64,000 bases of DNA from Maribacter ulvicola (GTDB lineage: Bacteria; Bacteroidota; Bacteroidia; Flavobacteriales; Flavobacteriaceae). The first letter of the stretch is position 1, and the number at the start of each line of letters is the position of its first letter. Under the pieces are notes generated by a model that saw nothing but the letters and a program-made list of their open reading frames with translations, was not told the DNA's origin and searched no databases. Location: NCBI RefSeq assembly GCF_900155985.1, contig NZ_FTMA01000010.1:1-64000 (forward strand), given 5' to 3'. The translations under genes and the position numbers were made by a program. Shown one piece after another: positions 22,227 through 42,352 of the stretch.

Positions 22227-25200
22227 CTACAAACCAATTAAGATACCTGCATTGTATACCTTTTGTATAGGATACTTAAAACCATTACCCGCCATTTCTG
22301 GATCCCAAAGTTTAAATTTGCTAAAGGTCATTAGGTTATTACCTGATAAATATATTCTAGCACTTCTTAATCCAAATTTCTCGCTTAATTTGCTAGGAAT
22401 AGAGTATCCTACTTCTAAGGATTTCCATCTTAAAAATGCGCCATCTCTCATCCACCATGTACTTGTTTTTTGGTTATTCTCCAAAGACCTATCGGTTAAA
22501 CGAGGCCAAAAAGCTTTTGGATCAGGATTACTTTCAGACCAATGATCATCTGCAATGACTTTCAACAAAGCATTTTTTCCTCCATCATTTCTGACAAACG
22601 GCTGTATTGTAGATGATTGTATAAAAAAGCTTTCATTCGCCAAACCTTGGAAAAAACTAGATATATCAAAACCTTTGTAACCACCACTGAATCCAAATCC
22701 ATAAACAATTTCAGGACGGGTAGGATTACCTATAGCTACTTGATCATCAAAACTAATTTTACCGTCTAAATTGATATCACGATACTTAATATCACCAGGA
22801 CCGTAGGAACCAAAGGTCTGAATTGGGCTATTGTCCACATCTGCCTGATCAATAAATAATCTTTCTGCTACATAGCCCCAAGTTTGTGTAGTAGGGTAAC
22901 CGGTTCTATTTAACCAAGGTGTTTCTGATCTATCGACATCTTCGTAGTACTCAAACTCACTAACGGCATAGGTAAAGTTACCTCTTAAACTCAACCATAG
23001 TCCGTTGGTCCAACTTTCATTATAATCCAGCGATAAATCAAAACCATAGCCTTTTGCTTTACCCACGTTTGCTGTTGGTGTTTGCAATAGCCCCATAGAG
23101 ACGGGTACAGAGGCTCTTGTCATTAAGATATTTTCTCGGTTTTCAGTATAATAATCCGCTATGAAATTGAATTTCTCAAATATATTCGCCTCTAGACCTA
23201 GGTTTAACTTTTTTGAAGTTTCCCAAGTTATCTTATCATTCGGATATCGTATTGTAGATACCCCTGGGCTATACACGCTACCAAATTCTCCCCAAGAATA
23301 TCCCCTAGAGTCGTCAATTAAATTAATATTCGACAAATAAAAGAAACGATCATACTCGTTACCTATGGCGTCTGTACCCGATAAACCATATGTTGCCTTA
23401 AATTTCATGGATGTAAACACTTTGTCCAGTGCAGTCTTTTTCCAGAAATCTTCATTAGATATTACATAACCTAAACCTGTAGAAGGAAAAAAGCCCCAAC
23501 GATTCTTTTTTGCAAATCTTTCACTACCATTTAATCCAAAATTGAATTCTGCAAAATATTTATCCTTATAACCATAGGTAAAACGCCCGGCATAGCCTAA
23601 ATTTTTATGAGGTAAGGACGATGTTAAATCATCTCCTGGTTCTTCATAATTTCTACCGGTAGCAACAAGCATTCCCGTTACATCATGAGTATTAGAAATA
23701 TTCTTATTATAATTAAGAACCATTTCATAATAATTAGATGCATTTACTACTTTCTCCGATGGCAAATAATCTAAAAACTCAGTTCCCTGTTCCGGGTTTT
23801 TTGCGGTTAGAAAAAATGAATCTTCAGTAGAATTGTATGTACCAGGTGTTACATAATAATAGTATGGATTGTATTGTCTTTGTGCATCAAAAGATGATGT
23901 TCTGTCCGTTGATAATAAAAATTTAGCTTTAAGTCCTTCTGTAATAAAATCAAAATCCTGATTAACAACTACTTGGGTTTTCATTTGCGTGTAGGTAGAT
24001 TCTTTAAAACCTTTGACCATTTCAGCATACGGATTTAAATAATCTTCATCTGGGTCGTTACCAAACAAAAGGTGATTTCTTGGTGATAAGGAATGATCCG
24101 GTCTAAAAAAGGGTGAGAAAGCTACAGGATCCGCCCTTAAAACCATATTATAAGTATCATCACCACTAATAAGTGGTCCATTATAATCACGGAAATGACC
24201 ATTAAAACGAATAGTAACGTCTGTAGTTTTTGTAAGTTTTAAACCAACATTAGACCTTAATACAAATGATTTTACATTAATATTGTTATTAAAGTTATTT
24301 TGATCGTTCTCTTTTAGATTACCATTGTCTTCATTAAAAGTACCTGCCAAATAATAGGTAACCTTAGAAGAACCTCCACTGAGGTTAATATTTGTTCTAG
24401 AATTTATAACCTTATCCTTGAACAGAAAATCATACCAATCTGTTGCGGGATATACGTATGGGTTTGCTCCATTTTGTGTTTGCTCTATCTTTTCTAAACT
24501 ATAGAACCTATTAGCAAACGGGTCTCTAGCCAAGGTGGCCTCATTATGCAATTTCATATAAGAAATGGGATCGGCGAGATCTATTTCTTGGGTAGACATA
24601 CTTAGAGATTGTTCATGTCTTACATTAATTTTCAGCTTACCTTCCATACCGGTTTTTGTAGTTACATTGATAACTCCATTTCCACCTCTTGCACCATAGA
24701 CCGCAGTTGCAGCGGCATCCTTCATTATAGAAAAGGTATCAATATCATCTGGTTGCATAGCATTTAATTCACGTGTTGTAGATTCAACACCATCAATTAA
24801 AATAAGAGGACCAGAAGCATAACTAAATGAAGTAACACCACGAACAAAAAAATTGGCATCATCTGATCCCGGCTCACCAGAACGCTGATAAGAAATTAAA
24901 CCTGAGACCCTACCGGCCAATGCGGTAGATAAATTACTGGACGGAATTTTTAGTTCAGCTGGCTTTATCGTCTCAATAGAAGATACGACACTTGCTTTCT
25001 TTTGCTTTACACCAAATGCGGTCAGTACCACCTCTTTTAATTCTGCCGCATCTTCCTTTAATATTACATTAAGTACATTTTTACCATTTACTGCTAAGGT
25101 GACCGTCTTCATACCGACAAAACTGAACTGTAAAGAATCTGTTTCCGATACCTTACTGATCAAATAATCTCCGTCAAATCCGGTCATTGTGCCGTTGGTG

Positions 25201-25340
25201 CCGCCCTTTACCAAAACATTTACCCCCATAATAGGTTCATTAAATTCGTCGGTAACACGACCTGTTATTGATTTTTCCTGGGCTTGTAGTCCAAATATGG
25301 CACATATAAATAGCGCCATACTCATTATTTTTATTTCCAT
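22227..25340 (-). CDS. susC-like: SusC/RagA-family TonB-linked outer-membrane transporter
   Basis: 1037 residues from the ATG at 25340 (MEIKIMSMALFICAIFGLQA signal peptide); the longest frame adds 33 residues without signal character. Domains: regulatory beta-sandwich (ITGRVTDEFNEPIMGVNVLV, TMTGFDGDYLIS), linker LKEVVLTAFGVKQKKASVVS, TonB plug (FVRGVTSF, LILIDGVESTTRELN, IMKDAAATAVYGARGGNGVI) and a barrel ending KVYNAGILIGL. Partner of the SusD that follows. No glycoside hydrolase is in this operon, so its ligand must be processed by enzymes elsewhere, possibly the GH20 upstream. Confidence 0.95.
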   Translation of the reverse strand: MEIKIMSMALFICAIFGLQAQEKSITGRVTDEFNEPIMGVNVLVKGGTNGTMTGFDGDYLISKVSETDSLQFSFVGMKTVTLAVNGKNVLNVILKEDAAELKEVVLTAFGVKQKKASVVSSIETIKPAELKIPSSNLSTALAGRVSGLISYQRSGEPGSDDANFFVRGVTSFSYASGPLILIDGVESTTRELNAMQPDDIDTFSIMKDAAATAVYGARGGNGVINVTTKTGMEGKLKINVRHEQSLSMSTQEIDLADPISYMKLHNEATLARDPFANRFYSLEKIEQTQNGANPYVYPATDWYDFLFKDKVINSRTNINLSGGSSKVTYYLAGTFNEDNGNLKENDQNNFNNNINVKSFVLRSNVGLKLTKTTDVTIRFNGHFRDYNGPLISGDDTYNMVLRADPVAFSPFFRPDHSLSPRNHLLFGNDPDEDYLNPYAEMVKGFKESTYTQMKTQVVVNQDFDFITEGLKAKFLLSTDRTSSFDAQRQYNPYYYYVTPGTYNSTEDSFFLTAKNPEQGTEFLDYLPSEKVVNASNYYEMVLNYNKNISNTHDVTGMLVATGRNYEEPGDDLTSSLPHKNLGYAGRFTYGYKDKYFAEFNFGLNGSERFAKKNRWGFFPSTGLGYVISNEDFWKKTALDKVFTSMKFKATYGLSGTDAIGNEYDRFFYLSNINLIDDSRGYSWGEFGSVYSPGVSTIRYPNDKITWETSKKLNLGLEANIFEKFNFIADYYTENRENILMTRASVPVSMGLLQTPTANVGKAKGYGFDLSLDYNESWTNGLWLSLRGNFTYAVSEFEYYEDVDRSETPWLNRTGYPTTQTWGYVAERLFIDQADVDNSPIQTFGSYGPGDIKYRDINLDGKISFDDQVAIGNPTRPEIVYGFGFSGGYKGFDISSFFQGLANESFFIQSSTIQPFVRNDGGKNALLKVIADDHWSESNPDPKAFWPRLTDRSLENNQKTSTWWMRDGAFLRWKSLEVGYSIPSKLSEKFGLRSARIYLSGNNLMTFSKFKLWDPEMAGNGFKYPIQKVYNAGILIGL

Positions 25341-25773
25341 TGAGTTTGAATTAAGTTGTATTGTAGTTACTAAATGCTTGCTCTGATTTACTTTAATTAC
25401 TTCTCTTAAAATAACCTTATAGCCTATGAAACAAACCATTACACCGTAGTATTGTTAGTCACGTTTACTCTTTAAAAACTAAATGCCATACTTAATTTTA
25501 GACATAACAAAGCCATGAGCATATTGACATTTTTTATTTTTTTATGCCAACAGACTTATCATCATGCTGCAGTACTTCTTTAGTACTTATATTTTAAAAT
25601 AGCTATGAGGAGTAATTAATTCTATATGTTAAAATAGAAAAGCGATAGGTAAAGTTTACCCAGACAAAATTGTGATAATAATAACATTCATAATTTGGAT
25701 GGTTTAAGTTTATAATAAATTAACATTTAATTCATCTTATTCGCAATTTATTATACTTATTAATCCACGGTAG

Positions 25774-26960: not shown

Positions 26961-29177
26961 TTACTCTTTCTTTTTTATAAACACCACACCATTAGAATCA
27001 TTTCCTATATCTCCTCTAACCTTGGTCTTAATTTTAAATTCGGCTCCGGTTTCATAGGCATCGATCTTTAATAGATAGGTGTTCTCTTTAGAAGAAATAC
27101 CTGTTTCCCCTAAATGAATATCAGAAGTAATCAACTTTCTGTTCTTGTAAACAGACACCTCTTCTATCTCTAATTTATGCGCCCCACCAGTGTAGATAAA
27201 AGTAATTTCATAAGTTCCGTTAGAATCAATTTTACCGGTAGCATTAAATTCCAATTCTCCAAATTTTACCCCTTTAATCAGTGATGGTTTCCATTCGCCC
27301 AATAAAGCTCCATACTTCTTATATTGCTCATACTTTTCGGGAAAATACAATGGTAAAGAGAATTGATGACGGTTTACAACGGTGATGGCTTTAAAATCAG
27401 AAAGTTTGTCTACTGTAACAGGACCGGAATATACTGGATCAAAAGTAGTAGGTTTTAGCCCGTTGACCGTATAGGCAATATGTGCTCCCTTGACCACATT
27501 TTCTAATGTTATCTGTATACTTCCGTCTATTTCCTGTGTACTTATGAGTTTGGGCTGTGGCACACGGTAGCCATACCCCGCTTCATCATATCTATTATAA
27601 TGCCTCTGCATTCTATTTTCAAAACCGGACCAATCTTTATTCTTTTTTTCCGTCCAAGCTACTTCAGCAATAGCTGCCATCCTAGGAAAAGTAAGGTAAT
27701 CAAAATACTTCTCTGATCTATTTTCATTAATAGGTAATATCTCTTGTAAAATAGTACCATGGATGAACTGATCTGACCAAAGTGTTGCCTGAACACCCAA
27801 AACCTGCGACCTATATTCTTCTTTTAACCCTTCTACCATTGGGTCCATACTATAAACCTTCTCTAGACTGATCGGAGGCAACCAAGTCGCCGCCTTCACC
27901 TCACCAGGAATTTTACTTTCCGCAACATCAAAATAGGCATGGGTTGAAAGTGCCATAACCATATCATGCCCGGCCTCTGCACCCAAAGCAGCCTTTTTTT
28001 TGTTTCTCCAAACCATTCCAACAGCCTTATCGTCTAGTCCCCTTTCAATTATCTCATCCCAGCCAACAATAGTTTTTTCATGATTCTTTAGTACTTTTTG
28101 AATTCTATTGGTAAAATAGACCTGCAGATCAGATTCTTTATCCAGACCTAAAGTCTCTTTTCTTTTCTGACAATGAGCACATGCCGCCCATCGATCATAC
28201 TTTGCCTCATCACCACCTATATGTATGTATTTACTAGGAAAAAGCGCAACAACCTCGTCAAAAACATCTTCAAGAAAATCAAAGGTAGACTCCTTACCTA
28301 CGCAGTACAGCTCTCCGCTAATAGAATGCTGGGTCTGTACTACTTGTGGCTCACCGGTACATGACAAATGCGGGTAAGCGGCAAGGGCAGGTAACGTATG
28401 TGCCGGAATCTCAATTTCAGGAATTACTTCTATATTTCTCAAAGCCGCATATGCCACAATATCTTTTATTTCTTCTTGGGTATAATAGCCTCCGGTTCTT
28501 TCACTTCCTTCACCTCTAAACCCTCCGATAGCGGTAAGTTTTGGGTACTTTTTTATTTCTAACCTCCAACCGGCATCGTCTATTAAATGAAGATGTAAAA
28601 CGTTCATCTTATAAATAGCCATCATATCTACCAATTGTTTTACGTAAGACACCTCATAAAAGTACCTGCTTACATCTAACATCATACCACGCCAAGAATA
28701 TGCAGGAGCGTCTTCCACATAGGCGCCTTCTATGGCCCACTCCATACCTTTTTGTCTTCTAGAATTGAATATTTCTATAGGCAGCATTTGTCTAAGTGTC
28801 TGTATACCATTAAAAACACCTGCTTCGTTATTACCTATAACTTGAATATTTTTAGCAGTTACCAAGAGCCTGTACCCCTCTTTTTTATCCATCTGAGGAT
28901 CTACAGAAAGTTGAATACTGTTTTTCGTTGTTCTATTCGATGAGGATAGCTCAAAATCCCAACCGGTAGCTGGAGATAGTGTTTCTCCCAAGTATGCTGC
29001 TAAAGCCTCCAAGCCATGGCCATATTGTATTTTTGTTGATGGATGTAGTAGAAACACCTCTCCATTAGGCTCAAAACGCTCTGGTTTTGGAATAATATCG
29101 GCCGCCATTGATCGACCGTAAGAAATGAGAATAACAAAAACTAATAAACTCGTCTTTCCTAAAATAGTTTTTAACAT
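26961..29177 (-). CDS. secreted GH20 beta-N-acetylhexosaminidase
   Basis: 738 residues with a signal peptide (about 1-25, ending SMAAD). A GH20b-type N-terminal domain (about 27-155) precedes the catalytic barrel (about 160-500). The acid/base pair lies in HIGGDEAKYDRW (His319, Asp323, Glu324); other family marks are RGMMLDVSRYF, LHLHLIDDAGWRLEIKKYP and PEIEIPAH. A C-terminal beta domain (about 545-620, LKPTTFDPVYSG) and a further beta module follow. It removes terminal GlcNAc or GalNAc by substrate-assisted catalysis in the periplasm or outside. Monocistronic: 1.6 kb from region B susC and its own terminator, so participation in that PUL is a guess. Confidence 0.93.
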   Translation of the reverse strand: MLKTILGKTSLLVFVILISYGRSMAADIIPKPERFEPNGEVFLLHPSTKIQYGHGLEALAAYLGETLSPATGWDFELSSSNRTTKNSIQLSVDPQMDKKEGYRLLVTAKNIQVIGNNEAGVFNGIQTLRQMLPIEIFNSRRQKGMEWAIEGAYVEDAPAYSWRGMMLDVSRYFYEVSYVKQLVDMMAIYKMNVLHLHLIDDAGWRLEIKKYPKLTAIGGFRGEGSERTGGYYTQEEIKDIVAYAALRNIEVIPEIEIPAHTLPALAAYPHLSCTGEPQVVQTQHSISGELYCVGKESTFDFLEDVFDEVVALFPSKYIHIGGDEAKYDRWAACAHCQKRKETLGLDKESDLQVYFTNRIQKVLKNHEKTIVGWDEIIERGLDDKAVGMVWRNKKKAALGAEAGHDMVMALSTHAYFDVAESKIPGEVKAATWLPPISLEKVYSMDPMVEGLKEEYRSQVLGVQATLWSDQFIHGTILQEILPINENRSEKYFDYLTFPRMAAIAEVAWTEKKNKDWSGFENRMQRHYNRYDEAGYGYRVPQPKLISTQEIDGSIQITLENVVKGAHIAYTVNGLKPTTFDPVYSGPVTVDKLSDFKAITVVNRHQFSLPLYFPEKYEQYKKYGALLGEWKPSLIKGVKFGELEFNATGKIDSNGTYEITFIYTGGAHKLEIEEVSVYKNRKLITSDIHLGETGISSKENTYLLKIDAYETGAEFKIKTKVRGDIGNDSNGVVFIKKKE

Positions 29178-30003: not shown

Positions 30004-33000
30004 ATGAAAAAAATTATATTCATACATGTATTTTTGTTTCTTTTTATACCGCTAGCTTTTTCCCAGACCATACTAAATGTCGAAGATTTTGAAGGAACTG
30101 ATTTTGTTGGCTACGCCATAGGTAATGCAGATACAGGAACGGACTATTCTTCTCAAAATTTTATTGTTTCTGGTCCAGATCGAATTAGCAGAGGAACTGT
30201 TGGTAGCTTCACTTTTGATGGTAGTATTACTGGTAATGCTACTAATTTTATAGGAGGAGAAGATATCAACTTTACTACTGACGGAGGATTTTATAATGGT
30301 CATTCATATATTGAATTAGATCCTATTGACATTACAAGTAAATCAAACCTATCAATAGATATAGACGTTGCGTTTCCTAATACATCTCCCACTAGGTATG
30401 AAATTAATGATTTTTTTATTGTTGATTACAAAATTGACGGAGGTAGTTATACAACTGTCCTTGCTTTTTATGGAGATGGTGATACCCCCACCCCTACCTT
30501 AGGGCTAAGAAGGGATGACAATTTAAATGGCATCTTGGACATTGGTGAAGTTAGTATTGTGAATACTGCTATGACAAGCTTTAATTTAAACCTAGATGCC
30601 ATAACCGGTAGCGCAGTAAGTGGAAATTCAATTGAAATTAGAGTTCGTTTTAAAATGCCAGACTCTCAAGAAGAATTTGCTTTTGATAATATCATTTTAA
30701 AAGGTTCAATTGGAAATACAGCTCCTGTTATAGGAGGAATTTCAATAGGACAGTTAGTAGATGATAATAGTACAATTGCTCCATTTTCAGCTATTACAAC
30801 TACAGATGCCGATGGAGATAACTTATCTGCAACGATTACTTTAGATGATAATTTAAAAGGAACATTAACAGGAACCGGTCTTTCTGGCTCTGGTCCATAC
30901 ACCATTGCTAGTACAACCCCGGCTGATTTGCAAAGTAAATTAAGAGCTTTAACTTTTAACCCTACAGATAACAGAACAACTACTATTGAAACCACTACCT
31001 TTTCCGTAGTTATTAATGATGGTACCGATACCGATACAAACAACACAACTACCGTTATTTCAAATGCTGTTGCTCCAACCGTAACCAGTGTTGACGTACC
31101 TGCCAATGCCACCTATCTAGTTGGACAAGATTTAGATTTTACGATTAACTTTAGTGAAAACGTAACTGTTAATACTACAGTAGGCACACCTCAAATTGCC
31201 ATTACTATTGGTGCTACCGTACGGCAAGCAACATACGTTAGTGGTTCTGGCACAAACGCTCTGGTATATAGGTACACCATACAATTGGGCGATTTGGATA
31301 TTAATGGTATTACCGTTGGTATTCTGGTTGCAAACGGGGGAACCTTAAGAGATTCTGGAGGAGAAGACGCTATCCTTACATTACTTAATATTGGATTGAC
31401 AACAGCTGTTCTAGTTGACGCAAATATTCCTATCTTAACCAGTGTTAATGTTCCTGCAAACGCTACATACATTACCGGACAGAATTTAGATTTCACAGTA
31501 AATTTTAATGATAATATAATTGTAAATACTTCAGTAGGAACTCCACAATTAGCCATAATTATCGGTGCCACTACACGCCAGGCAACCTATATAAGCGGCA
31601 GCGGGACCAATGCCTTAGTTTTTAGGTACACTGTACAAACAGGCGATTTGGATACTAACGGCATTGCAGTTATTGCACTTTCTGCAAACGGAGGGACCTT
31701 AAAAAATGCAGGTAATAATGACGCCAATCTAACTTTAATCGGTGTTGGGTTAACAGGCGGTGTTCTGGTAGATGCCGTAGCACCTATCGTAACCAGTGTA
31801 ACAGTACCGGCCAACGCAACTTATATTACCGGTCAGAACCTAGACTTTACCGTAAACCTTAGTAAAAACACGATAGTAAATACCACTTTAGGAACTCCGC
31901 AATTAGCCATAACCGTAGGGGCCACTACACGCCAGGCATCCTATATAAGTGGCAGTGGAACATCTTCCCTGCTCTTCAGCTATACGGTGCAAGCAGGCGA
32001 TCTGGACACCGACGGTATCGCCGTTGGTACTCTTTCCGCAAATGGCGGTACCTTGTTGGACCTAGTCAATAATATCGTAGACCTGACCTTAAATAGTGTT
32101 GGGACAACGGTAGGCGTCCTGGTAGATGCCATAGCACCTATCGTAACCAGTGTGACCGTCCCGGCCAACGCAACTTATATTACCGGTCAGAACCTAGACT
32201 TTACCGTAAACCTTAGTGAAAACACGATAGTAAATACCACTTTAGGAACTCCGCAATTAGCCATAACCGTAGGGGCCACTACACGCCAGGCATCCTATAT
32301 AAGTGGCAGTGGAACAACTGCGTTGTTGTTTAGATATACGGTGCAAGCAGGCGATCTGGACACCGACGGTATCGCCGTTGGTACTCTTTCCGCAAATGGC
32401 GGTACCTTGTTGGACCTAGTCAATAATGTCGTGGACCTGACCTTGAACAGCGTTGGGACAACGGTAGGGGTCCTGGTAGATGCCATAGCACCTATCGTAA
32501 CCAGTGTAACAGTACCGGCCAACGCAACTTATATTACCGGTCAGAACCTAGACTTTACCGTAAACCTTAGTGAAAACACAATAGTAAATACCACTTTAGG
32601 AACTCCGCAATTAGCCATAACCGTAGGGGCCACTACACGCCAGGCATCCTATATAAGTGGCAGTGGAACAACTGCGTTGTTGTTTAGATATACCATACAG
32701 ACTGGAGAGTTAGATAGTGACGGAATAACGATAGCATCATTAAGCGCTAACGGCGGTACACTACAAGACAATGCTACAAACGACCTTAATACAGTATTGA
32801 ATAATGTAGGCAGTACCTCTTCTATTTTGGTAGATGCCCTTGCCCCAACAGGTTATTCCGTAGATTTAGATTATAATCCTATCAATGACACCAATGAAGA
32901 TGCTATAAGTTTTTCTTTCTCTGGAGCAGAAGTTGGGTCAACTTACAACTACACTATTAACAGTTCAGGAGGAGGAACCAACGTCACCGGATCAGGCACC

Positions 33001-34113
33001 ATTAACATGATGAATGATCAAATAACAGGAATCGATCTAAGCGCATTATCGGACGGAACCATTACACTCAGCTTCTCCTTAACAGATGCTTATAATAATA
33101 TTGGAAACACAGTCACAGATACCGCTATAAAAGGTACCGATTCTGATAATGACGGTATAGCAGATAGCTTGGATAATTGCCCATCAACTAGTAATACTGA
33201 TCAAATAGACACCGATAATGATGGTAAAGGCGACATGTGTGATACCGATGATGACAATGACGGTACTCTAGATTCCGAAGACGCATTCCCGCTAGACAAC
33301 ACCGAGAATACCGACACCGATGGTGATGGTACCGGAGATAATGCCGATACCGATGACGACAATGACGGCACTCTAGATTCCGAAGATGCATTCCCGCTAG
33401 ACAACACCGAGGATACCGACACCGATGGTGATGGTACCGGAGACAATGCCGATACCGATGACGACAATGACGGCACTCTAGATTCCGAAGATGCATTCCC
33501 GCTAGACAACACCGAGGATACCGACACCGATGGTGATGGTACCGGAGACAATGCCGATACCGATGATGACAATGACGGCACTCTAGATTCCGAAGACGCT
33601 TTCCCGCTAGACAACACCGAGGATACCGACACCGATGGTGATGGTACCGGAGACAATGCCGATACCGATGATGATAATGACGGCACTCTAGATTCCGAAG
33701 ACGCATTCCCGCTAGACAACACCGAGGATACCGACACCGATGGTGATGGTACCGGAGATAATGCCGATACCGATGACGACAATGACGGCACTCTAGATTC
33801 CGAAGACGCATTCCCGCTAGACAACGCCGAGGATACCGATACCGATGGTGATGGTACCGGAGACAATGCCGATACCGATGATGATAATGACGGCACTCTA
33901 GATTCCGAAGACGCTTTTCCTTTAGATCCTACTGAAGACAAGGATAGCGATAATGATGGTATAGGCGACAATTCTGATACTGATAGTGATAGTGATATTA
34001 AAGAAGGAAACCCCGAACCTGCACAGGCATTTACACCTAATGGCGACGGAATTAATGACACATGGTTAATTCCTGGTATAAACAAATACCCAAACAATTT
34101 GGTGAAAGTATAG
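30004..34113 (+). CDS. giant T9SS-type surface protein with Ig-like and TSP3 repeats, truncated in its sorting domain
   Basis: 1369 residues as read. Signal peptide MKKIIFIHVFLFLFIPLAFS; a jelly-roll-like domain to about residue 238; a cadherin/Ig-like domain (about 239-355); five tandem 118-residue Ig-like modules (about 357-946) beginning VTSVxVPANATYxxGQ; an extra beta module; then seven calcium-binding thrombospondin-type-3 repeats of 35 residues (DTDDDNDGTLDSEDAFPLD...); finally FTPNGDGINDTW, the start of a type-B (CHU_C/gliding-motility) T9SS sorting domain. The frame stops at TAG (34111-34113) after NNLVKV, where the family normally has an aromatic residue followed by NRxGxEVY. The rest of the domain follows in frame. 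Likely an adhesin; its export by T9SS is doubtful if the stop is real. Confidence 0.85.
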   Translation: MKKIIFIHVFLFLFIPLAFSQTILNVEDFEGTDFVGYAIGNADTGTDYSSQNFIVSGPDRISRGTVGSFTFDGSITGNATNFIGGEDINFTTDGGFYNGHSYIELDPIDITSKSNLSIDIDVAFPNTSPTRYEINDFFIVDYKIDGGSYTTVLAFYGDGDTPTPTLGLRRDDNLNGILDIGEVSIVNTAMTSFNLNLDAITGSAVSGNSIEIRVRFKMPDSQEEFAFDNIILKGSIGNTAPVIGGISIGQLVDDNSTIAPFSAITTTDADGDNLSATITLDDNLKGTLTGTGLSGSGPYTIASTTPADLQSKLRALTFNPTDNRTTTIETTTFSVVINDGTDTDTNNTTTVISNAVAPTVTSVDVPANATYLVGQDLDFTINFSENVTVNTTVGTPQIAITIGATVRQATYVSGSGTNALVYRYTIQLGDLDINGITVGILVANGGTLRDSGGEDAILTLLNIGLTTAVLVDANIPILTSVNVPANATYITGQNLDFTVNFNDNIIVNTSVGTPQLAIIIGATTRQATYISGSGTNALVFRYTVQTGDLDTNGIAVIALSANGGTLKNAGNNDANLTLIGVGLTGGVLVDAVAPIVTSVTVPANATYITGQNLDFTVNLSKNTIVNTTLGTPQLAITVGATTRQASYISGSGTSSLLFSYTVQAGDLDTDGIAVGTLSANGGTLLDLVNNIVDLTLNSVGTTVGVLVDAIAPIVTSVTVPANATYITGQNLDFTVNLSENTIVNTTLGTPQLAITVGATTRQASYISGSGTTALLFRYTVQAGDLDTDGIAVGTLSANGGTLLDLVNNVVDLTLNSVGTTVGVLVDAIAPIVTSVTVPANATYITGQNLDFTVNLSENTIVNTTLGTPQLAITVGATTRQASYISGSGTTALLFRYTIQTGELDSDGITIASLSANGGTLQDNATNDLNTVLNNVGSTSSILVDALAPTGYSVDLDYNPINDTNEDAISFSFSGAEVGSTYNYTINSSGGGTNVTGSGTINMMNDQITGIDLSALSDGTITLSFSLTDAYNNIGNTVTDTAIKGTDSDNDGIADSLDNCPSTSNTDQIDTDNDGKGDMCDTDDDNDGTLDSEDAFPLDNTENTDTDGDGTGDNADTDDDNDGTLDSEDAFPLDNTEDTDTDGDGTGDNADTDDDNDGTLDSEDAFPLDNTEDTDTDGDGTGDNADTDDDNDGTLDSEDAFPLDNTEDTDTDGDGTGDNADTDDDNDGTLDSEDAFPLDNTEDTDTDGDGTGDNADTDDDNDGTLDSEDAFPLDNAEDTDTDGDGTGDNADTDDDNDGTLDSEDAFPLDPTEDKDSDNDGIGDNSDTDSDSDIKEGNPEPAQAFTPNGDGINDTWLIPGINKYPNNLVKV
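31072..32841 (+). repeat. five tandem 354-bp repeats (118-residue Ig-like modules)
   Basis: Units begin at 31072, 31426, 31780, 32134 and 32488, exactly 354 bp apart. Units 3 to 5 are nearly identical at DNA level over long stretches, including third codon positions, while units 1 and 2 have drifted. This points to recent duplication or gene conversion of the central modules. Confidence 0.9.
33241..33975 (+). repeat. seven tandem 105-bp repeats (TSP3-type calcium-binding)
   Basis: Units begin at 33241, 33346, 33451, 33556, 33661, 33766 and 33871. The first six differ at only a few bases; the seventh diverges in its second half. Each encodes 35 residues dense in Asp and rich in D-x-D-x-D-G calcium sites. 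Copy number is likely to vary between strains by slippage or recombination. Confidence 0.92.
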
Positions 34114-34278
34114 AACAGGTACGGTCATGAAGTATATGCCAAACGTAATTACCAAAACGATTGGGGCGGTAGAAGAAAGACCGGGGCTTCACTTTTACCG
34201 GCTGGCTCTTACTTATACATCATAGACTTAGGAAATGGCAGTACACCATTCCAAGGTTGGATATTCATCAATTATTAA
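34114..34278 (+). pseudogene. orphaned end of the type-B T9SS sorting domain after an in-frame amber codon
   Basis: Reading on in the same frame after TAG gives NRYGHEVYAKRNYQNDWGGR, then LLPAGSYLYIIDLGNG and a terminal FQGWIFINY before TAA at 34276-34278. This is the complete, well-conserved second half of a CHU_C/type-B domain. One base change in the TAG (to TAT or TAC) would restore a 1424-residue protein with the usual VYNRxG motif. A real nonsense mutation, sequencing error or suppression cannot be told apart from the sequence. Confidence 0.88.
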
Positions 34279-34297: not shown

Positions 34298-35185
34298 ATG
34301 GACCTTTTTCACAAAATATTAGTCGTATTGATCTTTTTCTCTTGTACGTTGACCAACGCGCAACAAGATCCCATCAATACCTTATACAGATATAACATGA
34401 ATCTGATCAACCCTGCATATGCAGGTGCCGATGGAAGAACAACTATAGGTGTTAACGTACGTAGCCAATGGTCTAATGTTCAAGGAGCTCCAGAAACCCA
34501 AAATTTAATATTCGATACAACTCTGGGCAAAAACCTTGGTATGGGAATTTCTGCGATAAGCGATAAAACGTTTATTGAAAATCAAACCTCTATAGCACTT
34601 GATTTTTCATACCAAGTAAAACTCGGTGAGAACCATGATCTATTTTTTGGTCTTAAAACCGGATTTAACTCTTATAACGCCAATACTGAAGGTCTGGTGA
34701 CGTATGGCATTCAAGAAGATCCTAGTCTAATGAACTTAGACGATAGACTTACCCCAAATTTTGGAGCAGGGTTATACTTAAAACATGACAATTACTTTCT
34801 GTCATTTTCAATTCCCAAAATTCTAACTAGGGACAGGCTAGAAGAAGAGAATGGTGTAGCTACATTGGGTGCCGATAAAAATCACTTCTACCTCGCTGGT
34901 GGCATGGAGCTGCCTTTAGGACAAAATATAACCCTTAAGCCCAGTTCCTTGCTGCGCTATGTGGAGGGAGCCCCCATATCTTTGGATATCACAACATTCC
35001 TAGACTTTAATAACTATTTTGACCTTGGAGCTGCGTATAGAGTTAATGAAAGTGTTAGTGGTATGGCTATTTTTAAAGTTTCCAGTGGTATGATGATCGG
35101 TTATGCATATGAAAGCCCTTTCGAAAATTCAATAAGAAACATTGACAATGGCACACATGAAATCATGCTCAATTTAAAATTATAA
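34298..35185 (+). CDS. PorP/SprF-family type IX secretion-associated outer-membrane protein
   Basis: 295 residues, signal peptide ending TNAQQ, then the family start DPINTLYRYNMNLINPAYAG, RSQWSNVQGAPETQ, GMGISAISDKTF and a C-terminal beta strand ending MLNLKL. PorP/SprF proteins form a small outer-membrane beta barrel and are the specific partners of T9SS substrates with type-B C-terminal domains (SprF/SprB being the known case). The gene follows the giant repeat protein at 20 nt beyond its original stop, forming the usual substrate-SprF pair, and looks intact. Confidence 0.93.
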   Translation: MDLFHKILVVLIFFSCTLTNAQQDPINTLYRYNMNLINPAYAGADGRTTIGVNVRSQWSNVQGAPETQNLIFDTTLGKNLGMGISAISDKTFIENQTSIALDFSYQVKLGENHDLFFGLKTGFNSYNANTEGLVTYGIQEDPSLMNLDDRLTPNFGAGLYLKHDNYFLSFSIPKILTRDRLEEENGVATLGADKNHFYLAGGMELPLGQNITLKPSSLLRYVEGAPISLDITTFLDFNNYFDLGAAYRVNESVSGMAIFKVSSGMMIGYAYESPFENSIRNIDNGTHEIMLNLKL

Positions 35186-35533: not shown

Positions 35534-36334
35534 TTATTTTTTTAATAGTTCTAAAACACTTAAAATAGCCCTATGATCCGATGCTAATTTTTCATCAATG
35601 ACCTTAGTTTCCAAAACACGCCATCTATTAGCCGGTTTAAATAAAATATAATCAATTTTATCCCTTGGTTCTTGTGCAGGATAGGTTGGTACATTTTCTA
35701 AAAATGATTGTTTCCAATATTTATAAAAAACATGCATTGTCTCGCTACCTGGTAATGCATTTAAATCTCCTGCCAAAATGGTAGGCACCTCATCTATTGC
35801 AAACAAATCGTTAATTTGTTTGGCTTGATCAATTCTATCCGTTTCAATATTTGTATGGTCTAAATGCGTACCAATAAACTTAATAGTATCATTACTTTTA
35901 ATAATTACGTTCACTTCTAAAGCTGCACGTGGTTCATTACCTTCCCTAACAACCAAAGTATGATTCTTGGTACTTAAAAACGAATAATCAGAAAGCACAC
36001 CTTCCCCATATTCCCCACCATCAAAAGACATAGCTTTACCAAAAATAGCCTGCATTTTGGTTCGGAGACCTAATTCAGTTACTAAATCTTTTTTTAAAAC
36101 TCTATTAGTTTTAAAATCTACTTCTTGCAACGCTACCAAATCTGGTTTTTCATCGTTTATTATTCTTGCCAATTCGTCTAAATCAAATTGCTTATCCAGA
36201 CCAACCGTTTCTCCGTGATAAATATTATAGGATAACACACGCACAATTCTTGTAGAATCTATGTTAGTTTGCCCAAACGCCCATTGTAATGGAACCACCA
36301 ATAACCAAAGCCTTAAAAAACACCTTTTGTTCAT
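35534..36334 (-). CDS. secreted endonuclease/exonuclease/phosphatase-fold hydrolase
   Basis: 266 residues, signal peptide ending WAFGQ. EEP-superfamily catalytic motifs in order: LSYNIYHGE, LVALQEVD, GTHLDHT, LAGDLNALPGS, KIDYILFK and SDHRAI. These supply metal-binding Asp/Glu and the catalytic His pair for Mg-dependent phosphodiester or phosphomonoester hydrolysis. First (lowest-coordinate) member of a set of three EEP genes, separated from its neighbour by 231 nt, so probably transcribed alone. Substrate (nucleic acid, phospholipid, inositol phosphate or sugar phosphate) cannot be deduced. Confidence 0.88.
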   Translation of the reverse strand: MNKRCFLRLWLLVVPLQWAFGQTNIDSTRIVRVLSYNIYHGETVGLDKQFDLDELARIINDEKPDLVALQEVDFKTNRVLKKDLVTELGLRTKMQAIFGKAMSFDGGEYGEGVLSDYSFLSTKNHTLVVREGNEPRAALEVNVIIKSNDTIKFIGTHLDHTNIETDRIDQAKQINDLFAIDEVPTILAGDLNALPGSETMHVFYKYWKQSFLENVPTYPAQEPRDKIDYILFKPANRWRVLETKVIDEKLASDHRAILSVLELLKK

Positions 36335-37872: not shown

Positions 37873-39468
37873 TTATTCAACTTCAAAAACCGTTAAAATT
37901 GCCGCATGGTCTGAAGGAAACATTATAGGATGATAATCAATAACCTTAGACCCTATAGGGTTTAAACCTCCTTTATAGTAGATAAAATCTATCCTATCCC
38001 TTAACCCATATTTTTTTGATGATGTCGCCGCTCTTGGGGTCCACGTAAAACCAGGATCTAATAAAGGGTCTATATGCATCTCCCTATAGCTATCAAAAAA
38101 TCCATTCTTTTGCATCGTTTTACTCACAGGCCACTCTACAATAAAGTCGTTATGAATTTGCCTTGTATCATCGGTCCAATCTAAATGTGAACCACTATTG
38201 AAATCACCTAGCATGATTACAGGAGTTTTATCGGTGTTTTTTAAAATAGGTTTTATCTCCTTTAATATTTGTTTCACCTCGGCATGTCTTGTTTCCGCTT
38301 CCGCTTTAATCAACTCATTAGCAGATTTCTCTTTATGAACAACGGCTGCGGCATAATCTGGCAAATAATGCAACCAAGTATTTAAAAACATCAATTCTTT
38401 ATTGTTACCCAGATCAACCTTCACTCCTCCAAAATTAAAAGGGCGAAAGGCCTTTATCGTCTCCTTTATAGGAAAACGGCTCATGATACTTAAATTTGAA
38501 CTGATCAAGTAAAAATGGTAACCCAAAGAATCGGCAATAATTTCTCCTGAACCATAGGTTTCGATCAATCCAATAATATCTGGCCGGGCTTCTTTGATAA
38601 TGTCTATGGTTCTTTTTACACCTACATGTTTACCATACCTTCTACCACCATGCCAAATATTCCAAACCATTGTTCTAATAGGTGCGTTAAGCTGCTTCTT
38701 TACCTTTGTGTGCCTAAATTTTACATATTCCGCTTCAATTTCCTTATCATCGCTATATACCGCATCAATTGATACCTCATCTAAAAACCCATTAAAGGCC
38801 GTCCATTGTCCTTGAGATCCATATTCCCAGTATTCATCCGTACCTCCAATGACCGTTCTATGTTCACTGTTAAAAGCACCAATGCCCGGTGTATTGTAAA
38901 TAGCAACATTTTCTCCATCCAAATAAAACCATATTTCCTCTTTTTCTCTATTTACACTAAAGGCTAGTTGATGCCAAACTCCATCATTTATTGCTTGCCT
39001 AGGTATAGTTGGTGTATATGTATACGTGTGCTTTCCATCTGAAATATTTGCGCCCCAGGCACCTGACGGCTGCGAAAAAATCATCCATCCTGCTGAATTG
39101 AGATCATTTTCTTTCTTATTACCAATAATTACGGTGCCTTGTTTTGCATTTTTAACCGTCTTTACCCAAATAGATACCGTTAAGGACTTGTCTTGTCCAT
39201 AATTTAAATTTTTAAGACTATCAATGGCCAAAGGCATTCTTAACACAGCATTCTCTGAAAGATCTAAAGCTTTACCCTTAACTCCTTCAATAAATTGTGG
39301 GCGTTGCAATTGTGTAATGTAAACGGCGTCATTTAAAGCTGTCTTTGAATAAAATGACTCCATATCTTCATCAAAACTTGTATAAAAATTGTTCTGTGCG
39401 TAACTAGAGACACTATTTAAAATCACATATAGTGCGAAAAAAATTCCCGTGACAATATTGCTTTTCAT
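37873..39468 (-). CDS. secreted LamG-EEP fusion hydrolase
   Basis: 531 residues: signal peptide ending SYAQN; a LamG/Laminin_G_3-type domain (about 28-250: AVLRMPLAIDSLKNL, WHQLAFSVNREKEEIWFYLD, FNGFLDEVSI); then an EEP domain (about 262-531) with MVWNIWHGGRR, IIGLIETYG, TWLHYLP, IMLGDFNSGSHLDW, DRIDFIYYKG and PSDHAAILTV. In the first EEP motif the usual Asn is present (WN) and the catalytic Glu is in LIET. LamG domains commonly bind glycans, so the enzyme may be targeted to a phosphorylated polysaccharide or glycolipid. Stands alone, with 275 and 183 nt on either side. Confidence 0.87.
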   Translation of the reverse strand: MKSNIVTGIFFALYVILNSVSSYAQNNFYTSFDEDMESFYSKTALNDAVYITQLQRPQFIEGVKGKALDLSENAVLRMPLAIDSLKNLNYGQDKSLTVSIWVKTVKNAKQGTVIIGNKKENDLNSAGWMIFSQPSGAWGANISDGKHTYTYTPTIPRQAINDGVWHQLAFSVNREKEEIWFYLDGENVAIYNTPGIGAFNSEHRTVIGGTDEYWEYGSQGQWTAFNGFLDEVSIDAVYSDDKEIEAEYVKFRHTKVKKQLNAPIRTMVWNIWHGGRRYGKHVGVKRTIDIIKEARPDIIGLIETYGSGEIIADSLGYHFYLISSNLSIMSRFPIKETIKAFRPFNFGGVKVDLGNNKELMFLNTWLHYLPDYAAAVVHKEKSANELIKAEAETRHAEVKQILKEIKPILKNTDKTPVIMLGDFNSGSHLDWTDDTRQIHNDFIVEWPVSKTMQKNGFFDSYREMHIDPLLDPGFTWTPRAATSSKKYGLRDRIDFIYYKGGLNPIGSKVIDYHPIMFPSDHAAILTVFEVE

Positions 39469-39651: not shown

Positions 39652-40557
39652 CTACCATTTAAATTCAGCTAAAACAGGATAGTGATCAGATAGGTAAAAG
39701 GTTTCTTCTTTATTTAAAATGTTAGCTTTCACGCATCTTTTTGCTAAAAAAGGAGAACTTAATATATAATCTATTCGGGTAGCGTTTACAGGATATCCTG
39801 CTCCTTTTTTTGTTTCAAAAACTTGCGTTGGACAACTTAACCTTTCTTCCCATGTAGAAGTAAATTTTTGAACAACATCTATGAGAGGATAACCCAAAAG
39901 CGAGCCTATTACCCCATATTCCAATTCGCCATACATCAAATTTTTGACATGGTCATGTTCCATCTCCGTTGCTTTACTTTGCTCTAAAATTAAAGCTTTG
40001 TCCTTATACAAATGGGCATCAAAAGGTGATAAGGCATTAAAATCTCCTAACACCAAATATTTGTTCTGTTCTTCTGACAACTTAGATAGTTTATTCATTA
40101 TTACTGTTGCCTCTTCCCGTCTTTTTTTATAGCTAAAAGGAGAAAAATGAATAACAAAAATATCTATGTCAAAAACCTTACAATGTAAAGCACCATGGTG
40201 CATATTTTCTAGTATTTTTTCTTTTACTACAATGGGTTCCTTAGCTGTTATTCCCACAGAATAACCAGAAGTTTTTAAAATTTGAGCATAATTGTGTCCC
40301 CATTTTTTAGCATCTTCCAATAATTTTTCTTGAGTATAGCCGCACAATTCCTGTAACGCAAATACATCTGGATCTTGGATATTTACCCAATCTATAAATT
40401 TACTTTTTCGGTCAATATCCTTACCCCAATCAAAACCGTTCCAAATATTATAACTTAAAACCTGTAAAGATTTCTTTTCCTGTGCTTTTATCGAAAAAAA
40501 ACTTAAAAGTGACACCAGCGCTATCATGATAATAGTCCCTCTTTTCATAATTGTCAT
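39652..40557 (-). CDS. secreted endonuclease/exonuclease/phosphatase-fold hydrolase
   Basis: 301 residues; signal peptide ending FSIKAQE (start could also be the Met three codons in). EEP motifs: VLSYNIWNGFDWG, VFALQELCGY, VIHFSPFS, LVLGDFNALSPFD, ATRIDYILSS and LSDHYPVLAEF. In place of the usual T-H-x of many nucleases the sequence has IHFSP. Third EEP gene of the island and clearly divergent from the other two, so the set arose by old rather than recent duplication. Confidence 0.86.
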   Translation of the reverse strand: MTIMKRGTIIMIALVSLLSFFSIKAQEKKSLQVLSYNIWNGFDWGKDIDRKSKFIDWVNIQDPDVFALQELCGYTQEKLLEDAKKWGHNYAQILKTSGYSVGITAKEPIVVKEKILENMHHGALHCKVFDIDIFVIHFSPFSYKKRREEATVIMNKLSKLSEEQNKYLVLGDFNALSPFDAHLYKDKALILEQSKATEMEHDHVKNLMYGELEYGVIGSLLGYPLIDVVQKFTSTWEERLSCPTQVFETKKGAGYPVNATRIDYILSSPFLAKRCVKANILNKEETFYLSDHYPVLAEFKW

Positions 40558-40825: not shown

Positions 40826-42352
40826 TTAAAGTGAATTATAAAGCCTATTTAAATCGAGTGGATCGTTCATTTTCTTTTGTAGCGACATTAAATCAGAAAA
40901 CAATCCTTTAACTTTTTTAATATTCTTTGGATCTTTTGCCAAATCGAATATTTCCATGGGATCCTCTTTCATATTGAACATTAAAATTTTATCAATTTTT
41001 GGATAGACAATAAGTTTATATCCATCCTTTCTTATCATTCTTTGCGATTCTTTTTCGAAGGCTCCATATACCCCATCTTGTAAATGGCCTTGGGTAGTCT
41101 CTCCTTTTGCCAAGGGAAGCAAGCTGTTGAATTCCACATGATCTGGTTTTTCCATTTTGGTCAACGCCAAACTGGTTGCCATAATATCTTGTAGATATAC
41201 TTCGGTCGCTACCCTTTTTCCTTTTGGAATATCTGGACCCACAATCATTAACGGCACACGAATACTATGGTCGTACATACTTTGTTTTCCCAATAAACCA
41301 TGATGACCTACAGAAAGTCCATGATCTCCTGTGAAGAATATATAGGTATTTTCCATTTCACCAGAAGCTTCCAAGGCATCTAGTATTTTTCCTATTTGCT
41401 CATCTAAATGTGTAATTATGGCGTAGTATTCCTTTAAATGAGTTTTAATAGCAAACGGAGTACGTGGATATGGGGCCAGTCTTTCATCTCTCATATGAAA
41501 TCCACTATTCATACCATCTGCATAAGGATACTCTGGCAACCAATTTTCAGGAAGGACAATATCATTAATATTATATTTATCTAAATATTCCTGCGGTGAT
41601 TGCCTAGGGTCATGTGGTGCATTAAATGCTAAATACATAAAAAATGGATTTTCCTTCTGAGTGGCATCGTCCAAAAATTCAAGTGCATCATCTCGTACTA
41701 CCTCGCTCCAGTGCTTGCCCCCTTCCCAAAAACCTTTAAACTTAGAACTAGCAGGATTCCAAAGGGTATCATTTTCATCAATGGGCCTATAGTAGGCAGA
41801 AGTGTTTTTTGCTCTCATTTCTTTTCCCGCTTTATAAGCTTCAAACATTTCTTTAGAATTGTTTTGATCGCCCATATCATTAGGCATACCTGGCTTAATA
41901 TTTTTAGCAGTACCAAACACCTCTTTTGCAGGAGCCTCAACGTGCCATTTTCCGGTCATATAAGTGTTATAACCTTCTGATTCCATTAGCTGGCCCCATG
42001 TGTTACTCATGGCCAAAGAATCTTTTTCCTTCCATTTAGGAACGGTATTATGGGCGTTCCAGAGGTATTTTCCTGATATTATCATTGATCGAGAAGCTAC
42101 ACAAATTGCTCCGTTCCATCCTCCCATATTATAGGCATGAGTAAATGTAGTACCCTGATTGACCAACCTATCTAAATTAGGAGTTTCAATAACATTATTC
42201 CCCAATGCGTGTATAGCCTCATAGGTATAGTCATCGGCAAAGAGAAACATAATATTAGGGTCTTTTTCCTTTTTATTCTTAGGCTTTTCCTGACATGCCA
42301 ACGTGAATAAAACAAGAAAAAAAATAGATGCTAATTTTTTAAAACAATTCAT
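40826..42352 (-). CDS. S1-family formylglycine sulfatase (lipoprotein)
   Basis: 508 residues; lipobox Cys20 (FTLAC). Metal-binding Asp40-Asp41 in FADDYT; formylglycine motif C-V-A-S-R (Cys84 to Arg88) followed by ISGKY; HGLSVGHHGLLGKQSMYDHS carries further active-site residues. It removes sulfate from a glycan or similar ester after conversion of Cys84 by an anaerobic or FGE-type maturase not present in this window. It is the most upstream gene of the secreted-hydrolase island and not adjacent to a SusCD pair. Specificity subfamily cannot be fixed by eye. Confidence 0.92.
   Translation of the reverse strand: MNCFKKLASIFFLVLFTLACQEKPKNKKEKDPNIMFLFADDYTYEAIHALGNNVIETPNLDRLVNQGTTFTHAYNMGGWNGAICVASRSMIISGKYLWNAHNTVPKWKEKDSLAMSNTWGQLMESEGYNTYMTGKWHVEAPAKEVFGTAKNIKPGMPNDMGDQNNSKEMFEAYKAGKEMRAKNTSAYYRPIDENDTLWNPASSKFKGFWEGGKHWSEVVRDDALEFLDDATQKENPFFMYLAFNAPHDPRQSPQEYLDKYNINDIVLPENWLPEYPYADGMNSGFHMRDERLAPYPRTPFAIKTHLKEYYAIITHLDEQIGKILDALEASGEMENTYIFFTGDHGLSVGHHGLLGKQSMYDHSIRVPLMIVGPDIPKGKRVATEVYLQDIMATSLALTKMEKPDHVEFNSLLPLAKGETTQGHLQDGVYGAFEKESQRMIRKDGYKLIVYPKIDKILMFNMKEDPMEIFDLAKDPKNIKKVKGLFSDLMSLQKKMNDPLDLNRLYNSL

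Follow-up and report, generated by a model that had tools for sequence, protein, structure and literature searches.

A TAG codon interrupts the sorting domain of a large surface protein

The window, meaning the whole stretch of 64,000 nucleotides of Maribacter ulvicola DNA that we analysed, contains a gene for an adhesin-like surface protein whose reading frame ends at a TAG codon within a CHU_C domain. The rest of the domain continues in the same frame beyond the stop and is followed by a PorP/SprF family gene.

30004..34113, plus strand: adhesin-like large surface protein of 1369 codons, starting at ATG 30004 and terminating at TAG 34111-34113
33208..33914, plus strand: TSP3-coding tandem array with a period of 105 bases and 6.7 copies (repeat search; Pfam TSP3)
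34111..34113, plus strand: in-frame TAG where relatives have a conserved aromatic residue, Tyr or Phe (sequence and alignment)
34114..34278, plus strand: 54 in-frame codons and TAA, the rest of the CHU_C domain, untranslated unless the stop is read through
34298..35185, plus strand: intact PorP/SprF family gene of 295 aa, presumably encoding the shuttle cognate to the sorting domain

The 1369-residue product begins with an N-terminal hydrophobic signal, judged by eye from the translation, and continues with a repeated domain whose coding units are 354 bases long, then with TSP3 repeats and finally with the opening 29 residues of the CHU_C domain. The 105-base array is nearly uniform (95% matches) with its units in frame, and it likely changes in length without a change of frame. 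While the first-pass annotation had called the protein giant, it is better described as large, considering that this genome has two CHU_C proteins whose open frames exceed 4000 residues. The annotation had correctly placed the in-frame TAG at 34111-34113, and it had also described correctly what comes after the stop, namely 54 codons, a normal TAA and then an undamaged PorP/SprF gene.

Both parts of the split domain are recognisable

The CHU_C domain was recognised on each side of the stop. In the product itself, positions 5-33 of the Pfam CHU_C model (PF13585) matched residues 1341-1369 with 26.3 bits (E 8e-6), just below the cut-off of 27 bits, and the 54 residues after the stop matched positions 35-86 with 51 bits (E 1.6e-13), in the same frame and in the right model order. 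Both pieces also matched the NCBIfam model of the T9SS type B sorting domain, TIGR04131, with scores of 22.7 and 16.1, each of which alone is below the cut-off of 35. When the stop was read through, the domain scored 93.8 bits, the third best among the 16 CHU_C domains of the genome. Considering the two-sided match to both models and the score of the joined domain, chance resemblance is excluded and, on the sequence evidence, the two pieces are one split domain.

With both pieces taken together, the DNA therefore holds a type B sorting domain by family model, and it adjoins a PorP/SprF gene, as is usual but not universal for T9SS type B substrates (34298-35185; PF11751, PorP_SprF, E 2.7e-71; TIGR03519, E 1.3e-71). 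The shuttle encoded there would be cognate to the split domain. Under the standard code, however, the whole sorting domain is absent from the translated product. Since translation ends at 34113 after 29 domain residues, the product lacks the latter two thirds of the sorting domain and is a broken type B member rather than a working one.

In a predicted model of the domain of the nearest relative, locus L074 of Arenibacter aquaticus (mean pLDDT 76.7), the TAG position corresponds to the last residue of strand 2 of 5. The alignment behind this model held 27 of the 35 rows of relatives and paralogues, omitting L082, L104, L105, L106, two of L107, L108 and L109. As judged from the model, the stop would remove three of the five strands of the sorting domain.

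The stop is unique among the related domains compared

The domain interrupted at 34111 is the only one with an internal stop among the 16 of its genome. Across the genus, the per-genome table for 36 genomes sums to 632 CHU_C matches by hand count; the best 150 were inspected along with all rows of the own genome, and one of these 150 carried a stop, again the one at 34111. No stop was present in the domain in 35 aligned rows of relatives and paralogues, which represent 33 distinct domains, as L105 duplicates L086 and L082 is the same as L085. L102 and L103 did not pass the E-value limit set for comparing codons; their aligned domains contain no stop either. The position of the TAG is occupied by Tyr in 27 and by Phe in six of the 33 distinct domains, in agreement with the claim that the stop falls on the conserved aromatic residue of the motif. 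The 54 codons behind it had been described as fully conserved, which is too strong: conservation is good but incomplete, with the domain about 80% identical to that of L074.

The comparison with close strains suggested in the first-pass annotation was run as a genus and a family search, both of which included the own genome. A near-identical copy was found neither in the 36 genomes of the genus nor in the 397 genomes of the family, where five matched at E 1e-30, the own one included. At L074, at L075-L101 (27 of the other 29 loci) and in G012, a PorP/SprF gene from the same subfamily is likewise immediately preceded by a similar sorting domain, and in contrast to the window none of these domains contains a stop. 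The shuttle of L074 is 79% identical to that of the window and those of L075-L101 are 45 to 68% identical, while a related pair on another contig of the own genome has a shuttle of 50% identity. L074 also shares the repeated domain, which is reached there at the contig end. The N-terminal 360 residues of the substrate had a match in none of the loci searched, and orthology of the whole substrate was shown for none.

In eight of the 30 related loci (L074, L075, L077, L084, L089, L091, L100 and L102), a contig end lies no more than about 2.9 kb away on the upstream side of the shuttle gene, a pattern that would arise if assemblies break in a repeat-rich substrate gene. Internal stops were seen in two PorP/SprF-like genes of the same genus, G005:C8:6479-7336 with one TAG and G013:C1:2480470-2481288 with three TGA; genome G013 is only 81% complete.

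The absence of a stop from the 33 distinct related domains, together with the intact frame of the shuttle gene, supports the reading that the TAG is a recent nonsense mutation in the gene for a T9SS type B substrate of this isolate, and we consider this probable. What counts against it is the purifying selection in the tail described below, which would also be expected if the tail were still translated. Alternatively, the assembly may contain a base error here, in which case the organism has an intact gene and the stop is not real. The undamaged surroundings (frame, natural stop and shuttle gene), its singularity among the 16 CHU_C domains of the genome and a tail divergence in line with that of intact relatives are all compatible with an error. 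However, the assembly is good overall (24 contigs, 4.51 Mb, completeness 99.96, contamination 0.03), all 59 of its Plug domains are free of stops, and the TAG is outside the tandem array. We regard a base error as possible, albeit rather unlikely.

The tail after the stop has been under selection

When the window was compared with L074, dS and dN were 0.65 and 0.119 in the codons after the stop and 1.12 and 0.128 in those before it. With dS well above dN, purifying selection has thus acted on the tail during most of its history. If half of dS is assigned to the window branch, a tail neutral over the whole branch should have accumulated about 40 amino-acid changes, whereas about nine were observed. 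A Poisson estimate gave p 0.001 for a tail neutral over half of the branch and p 0.16 for one quarter; by this estimate, neutrality over half of the branch is unlikely and over a quarter possible.

The stop could also belong to an older, decaying pseudogene, in which it would have been present for a sizeable share of the lineage while the tail drifted. This would agree with the polarised differences between the window and L074, of which, with 11 outgroups, nine fall on the window side and one on the side of the relative in the tail (binomial p 0.02). By the same polarisation the codons before the stop gave 4:2 and the shuttle gene 27:27 with nine undecided, so that the tail differs from the shuttle with a Fisher p of 0.034. 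With 33 outgroup rows the ratio in the tail was 8:2, and with four close ones 6:1 with three undecided. These counts are small, were made after the fact and assume that the window and L074 are sisters in the sorting-domain stretch too. An excess on the window side (8:2 or 9:1, shuttle 27:27) is also unexpected of a base error, against which it argues weakly.

Other features of the tail speak against long decay. Neither a second stop nor a frameshift occurs in 34114-34278. Of 28 positions that are strongly conserved, two differ in the window, inside the range of 0 to 4 among 34 relatives. Among 34 rows including the window, most relatives vary more in the tail than in the rest of the domain; the window ranks 29th in mean distance after the stop and 27th in the ratio of mean distances after and before it. 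Relaxed selection after the stop was hinted at by the sister comparison, but a ratio ranking 27th is no outlier. Considering also the Poisson estimate, under which neutrality over half of the branch is unlikely, an older pseudogene is very improbable. Purifying selection, the Poisson estimate and the absence of an outlier together indicate that the TAG is recent; the tail may or may not have begun to drift since then.

Neither read-through nor a switch is supported

Of the three explanations offered in the first-pass annotation, a recent nonsense change and a base error stand. The tests gave no support to the third, in which the stop is switched or read through. Under this third explanation, a leaky or hypermutable stop would set the share of the protein that reaches the surface, so that display would be low or mixed, with a fraction carried by the PorP/SprF partner and most of the protein staying periplasmic. 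The intact tail and shuttle and the purifying selection on the tail over its history fit such a stop, yet a programmed read-through should come with a suppressor tRNA or a recoding signal and with conservation of the stop among relatives, and we found none of these. A genome search for tRNA genes yielded 373 first-look candidates; of the 150 that were scored, 36 passed, and the anticodon, inspected at all 36, was CUA in none. The fold of the 120 bases from the stop on was unremarkable against 200 shuffles (z -1.23), with 26 of them at least as good. The tail has no in-frame ATG, GTG, TTG, CTG or ATT at which translation might start again, and ATC and ATA occur at four places. The stop itself, as noted, is shared by none of the 33 distinct relatives. 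Reassignment of TAG was likewise rejected: 15 of the 16 CHU_C domains are as free of stops as the Plug domains, and TAG is an ordinary terminator of nine of 36 ORFs in the window, this one included (the 36 were chosen from 43, the seven others being overlapping and omitted).

A phase-variable stop, on the other hand, would be expected to have a repeat tract, an invertible segment or a donor cassette at the site, and none that we checked fits the position of the stop. Matches to the stop region in the genome were, at the sensitivity used, the region itself and the TSP3 repeats of the same gene, leaving no donor copy. Inverted repeats between 29000 and 35600 were short and none was perfect, as judged from 25 of the 26 pairs. 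The repeats of the gene had been taken to make an on/off state credible, but the TAG lies outside both tandem arrays, about 200 bases past the end of the 105-base array. Moreover, 105 and 354 are both divisible by three; adding or losing a unit of either length keeps the frame and leaves the TAG codon untouched. With these results a read-through or switchable stop is extremely unlikely. Ordinary low-level misreading of TAG, which would require none of a suppressor tRNA, a fold or a donor copy, may still take place. The stop most likely reflects a recent knock-out mutation of the ordinary kind, or otherwise an error in sequencing, and not a genetic switch.

Predicted loss of display and comparison with known systems

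In the reading as a recent nonsense allele, one newly acquired nonsense change would interrupt the sorting domain of the substrate in the sequenced isolate. The truncated protein would still be made and reach the periplasm via its Sec signal. Without its last 55 residues it would no longer be recognised by the shuttle and would not be displayed, and the substrate gene would therefore be functionally off in this isolate. Our prediction of non-secretion follows a mutagenesis study of the type B signal of Flavobacterium johnsoniae SprB, in which mutation of any single motif among five is reported to abolish secretion, and in which the two type B substrates tested are reported to require their cognate PorP/SprF shuttles (PMC12618676). 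SprB has also been reported bound to SprF (PMC9143113).

The arrangement in the window resembles that of SprB and SprF as described for F. johnsoniae, with a large repetitive surface protein, a C-terminal type B signal and a PorP/SprF gene directly after it. As described there too, the gene after the shuttle is not PorE-like; here it encodes an Exo_endo_phos protein on the other strand (35534-36334). Unlike that of SprB, the signal here is cut by the stop after 29 domain residues. The C-terminal end of the grappling hook protein GhpA of Aureispira (PDB 9flp) matches the 54 residues after the stop (E 1.2e-5), but GhpA has 5898 residues compared with 1369 here, and the comparison covers the sorting domain. 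A nonsense mutation reported in gldB of Flavobacterium psychrophilum (PMC8400371) is similarly a premature stop in a gliding/T9SS gene of a single isolate; it affects another gene, and in contrast to the stop studied here it was linked to a phenotype. A literature search on Maribacter, type IX secretion and pseudogenes found no report.

If real, this would be a naturally occurring allele that abolishes display of a type B T9SS substrate while the neighbouring shuttle is intact, the signal being naturally truncated. The split CHU_C domain opens no new mechanism. It also calls for caution in annotation, where the gene would be labelled a pseudogene or its product described as lacking a sorting domain, and the T9SS substrate would go unnoticed.

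Beyond the shuttle gene, three Exo_endo_phos family proteins are clustered on the minus strand, the one already mentioned and those at 37873-39468 and 39652-40557. One of the three contains a Laminin_G_3 domain, and a 343-aa ORF without a Pfam match sits among them. A glycoside hydrolase of family 20 (26961-29177), a sulfatase (40826-42352) and a TonB-dependent receptor (22227-25439) are encoded near the substrate and shuttle pair, which suggests a setting of polysaccharide use.
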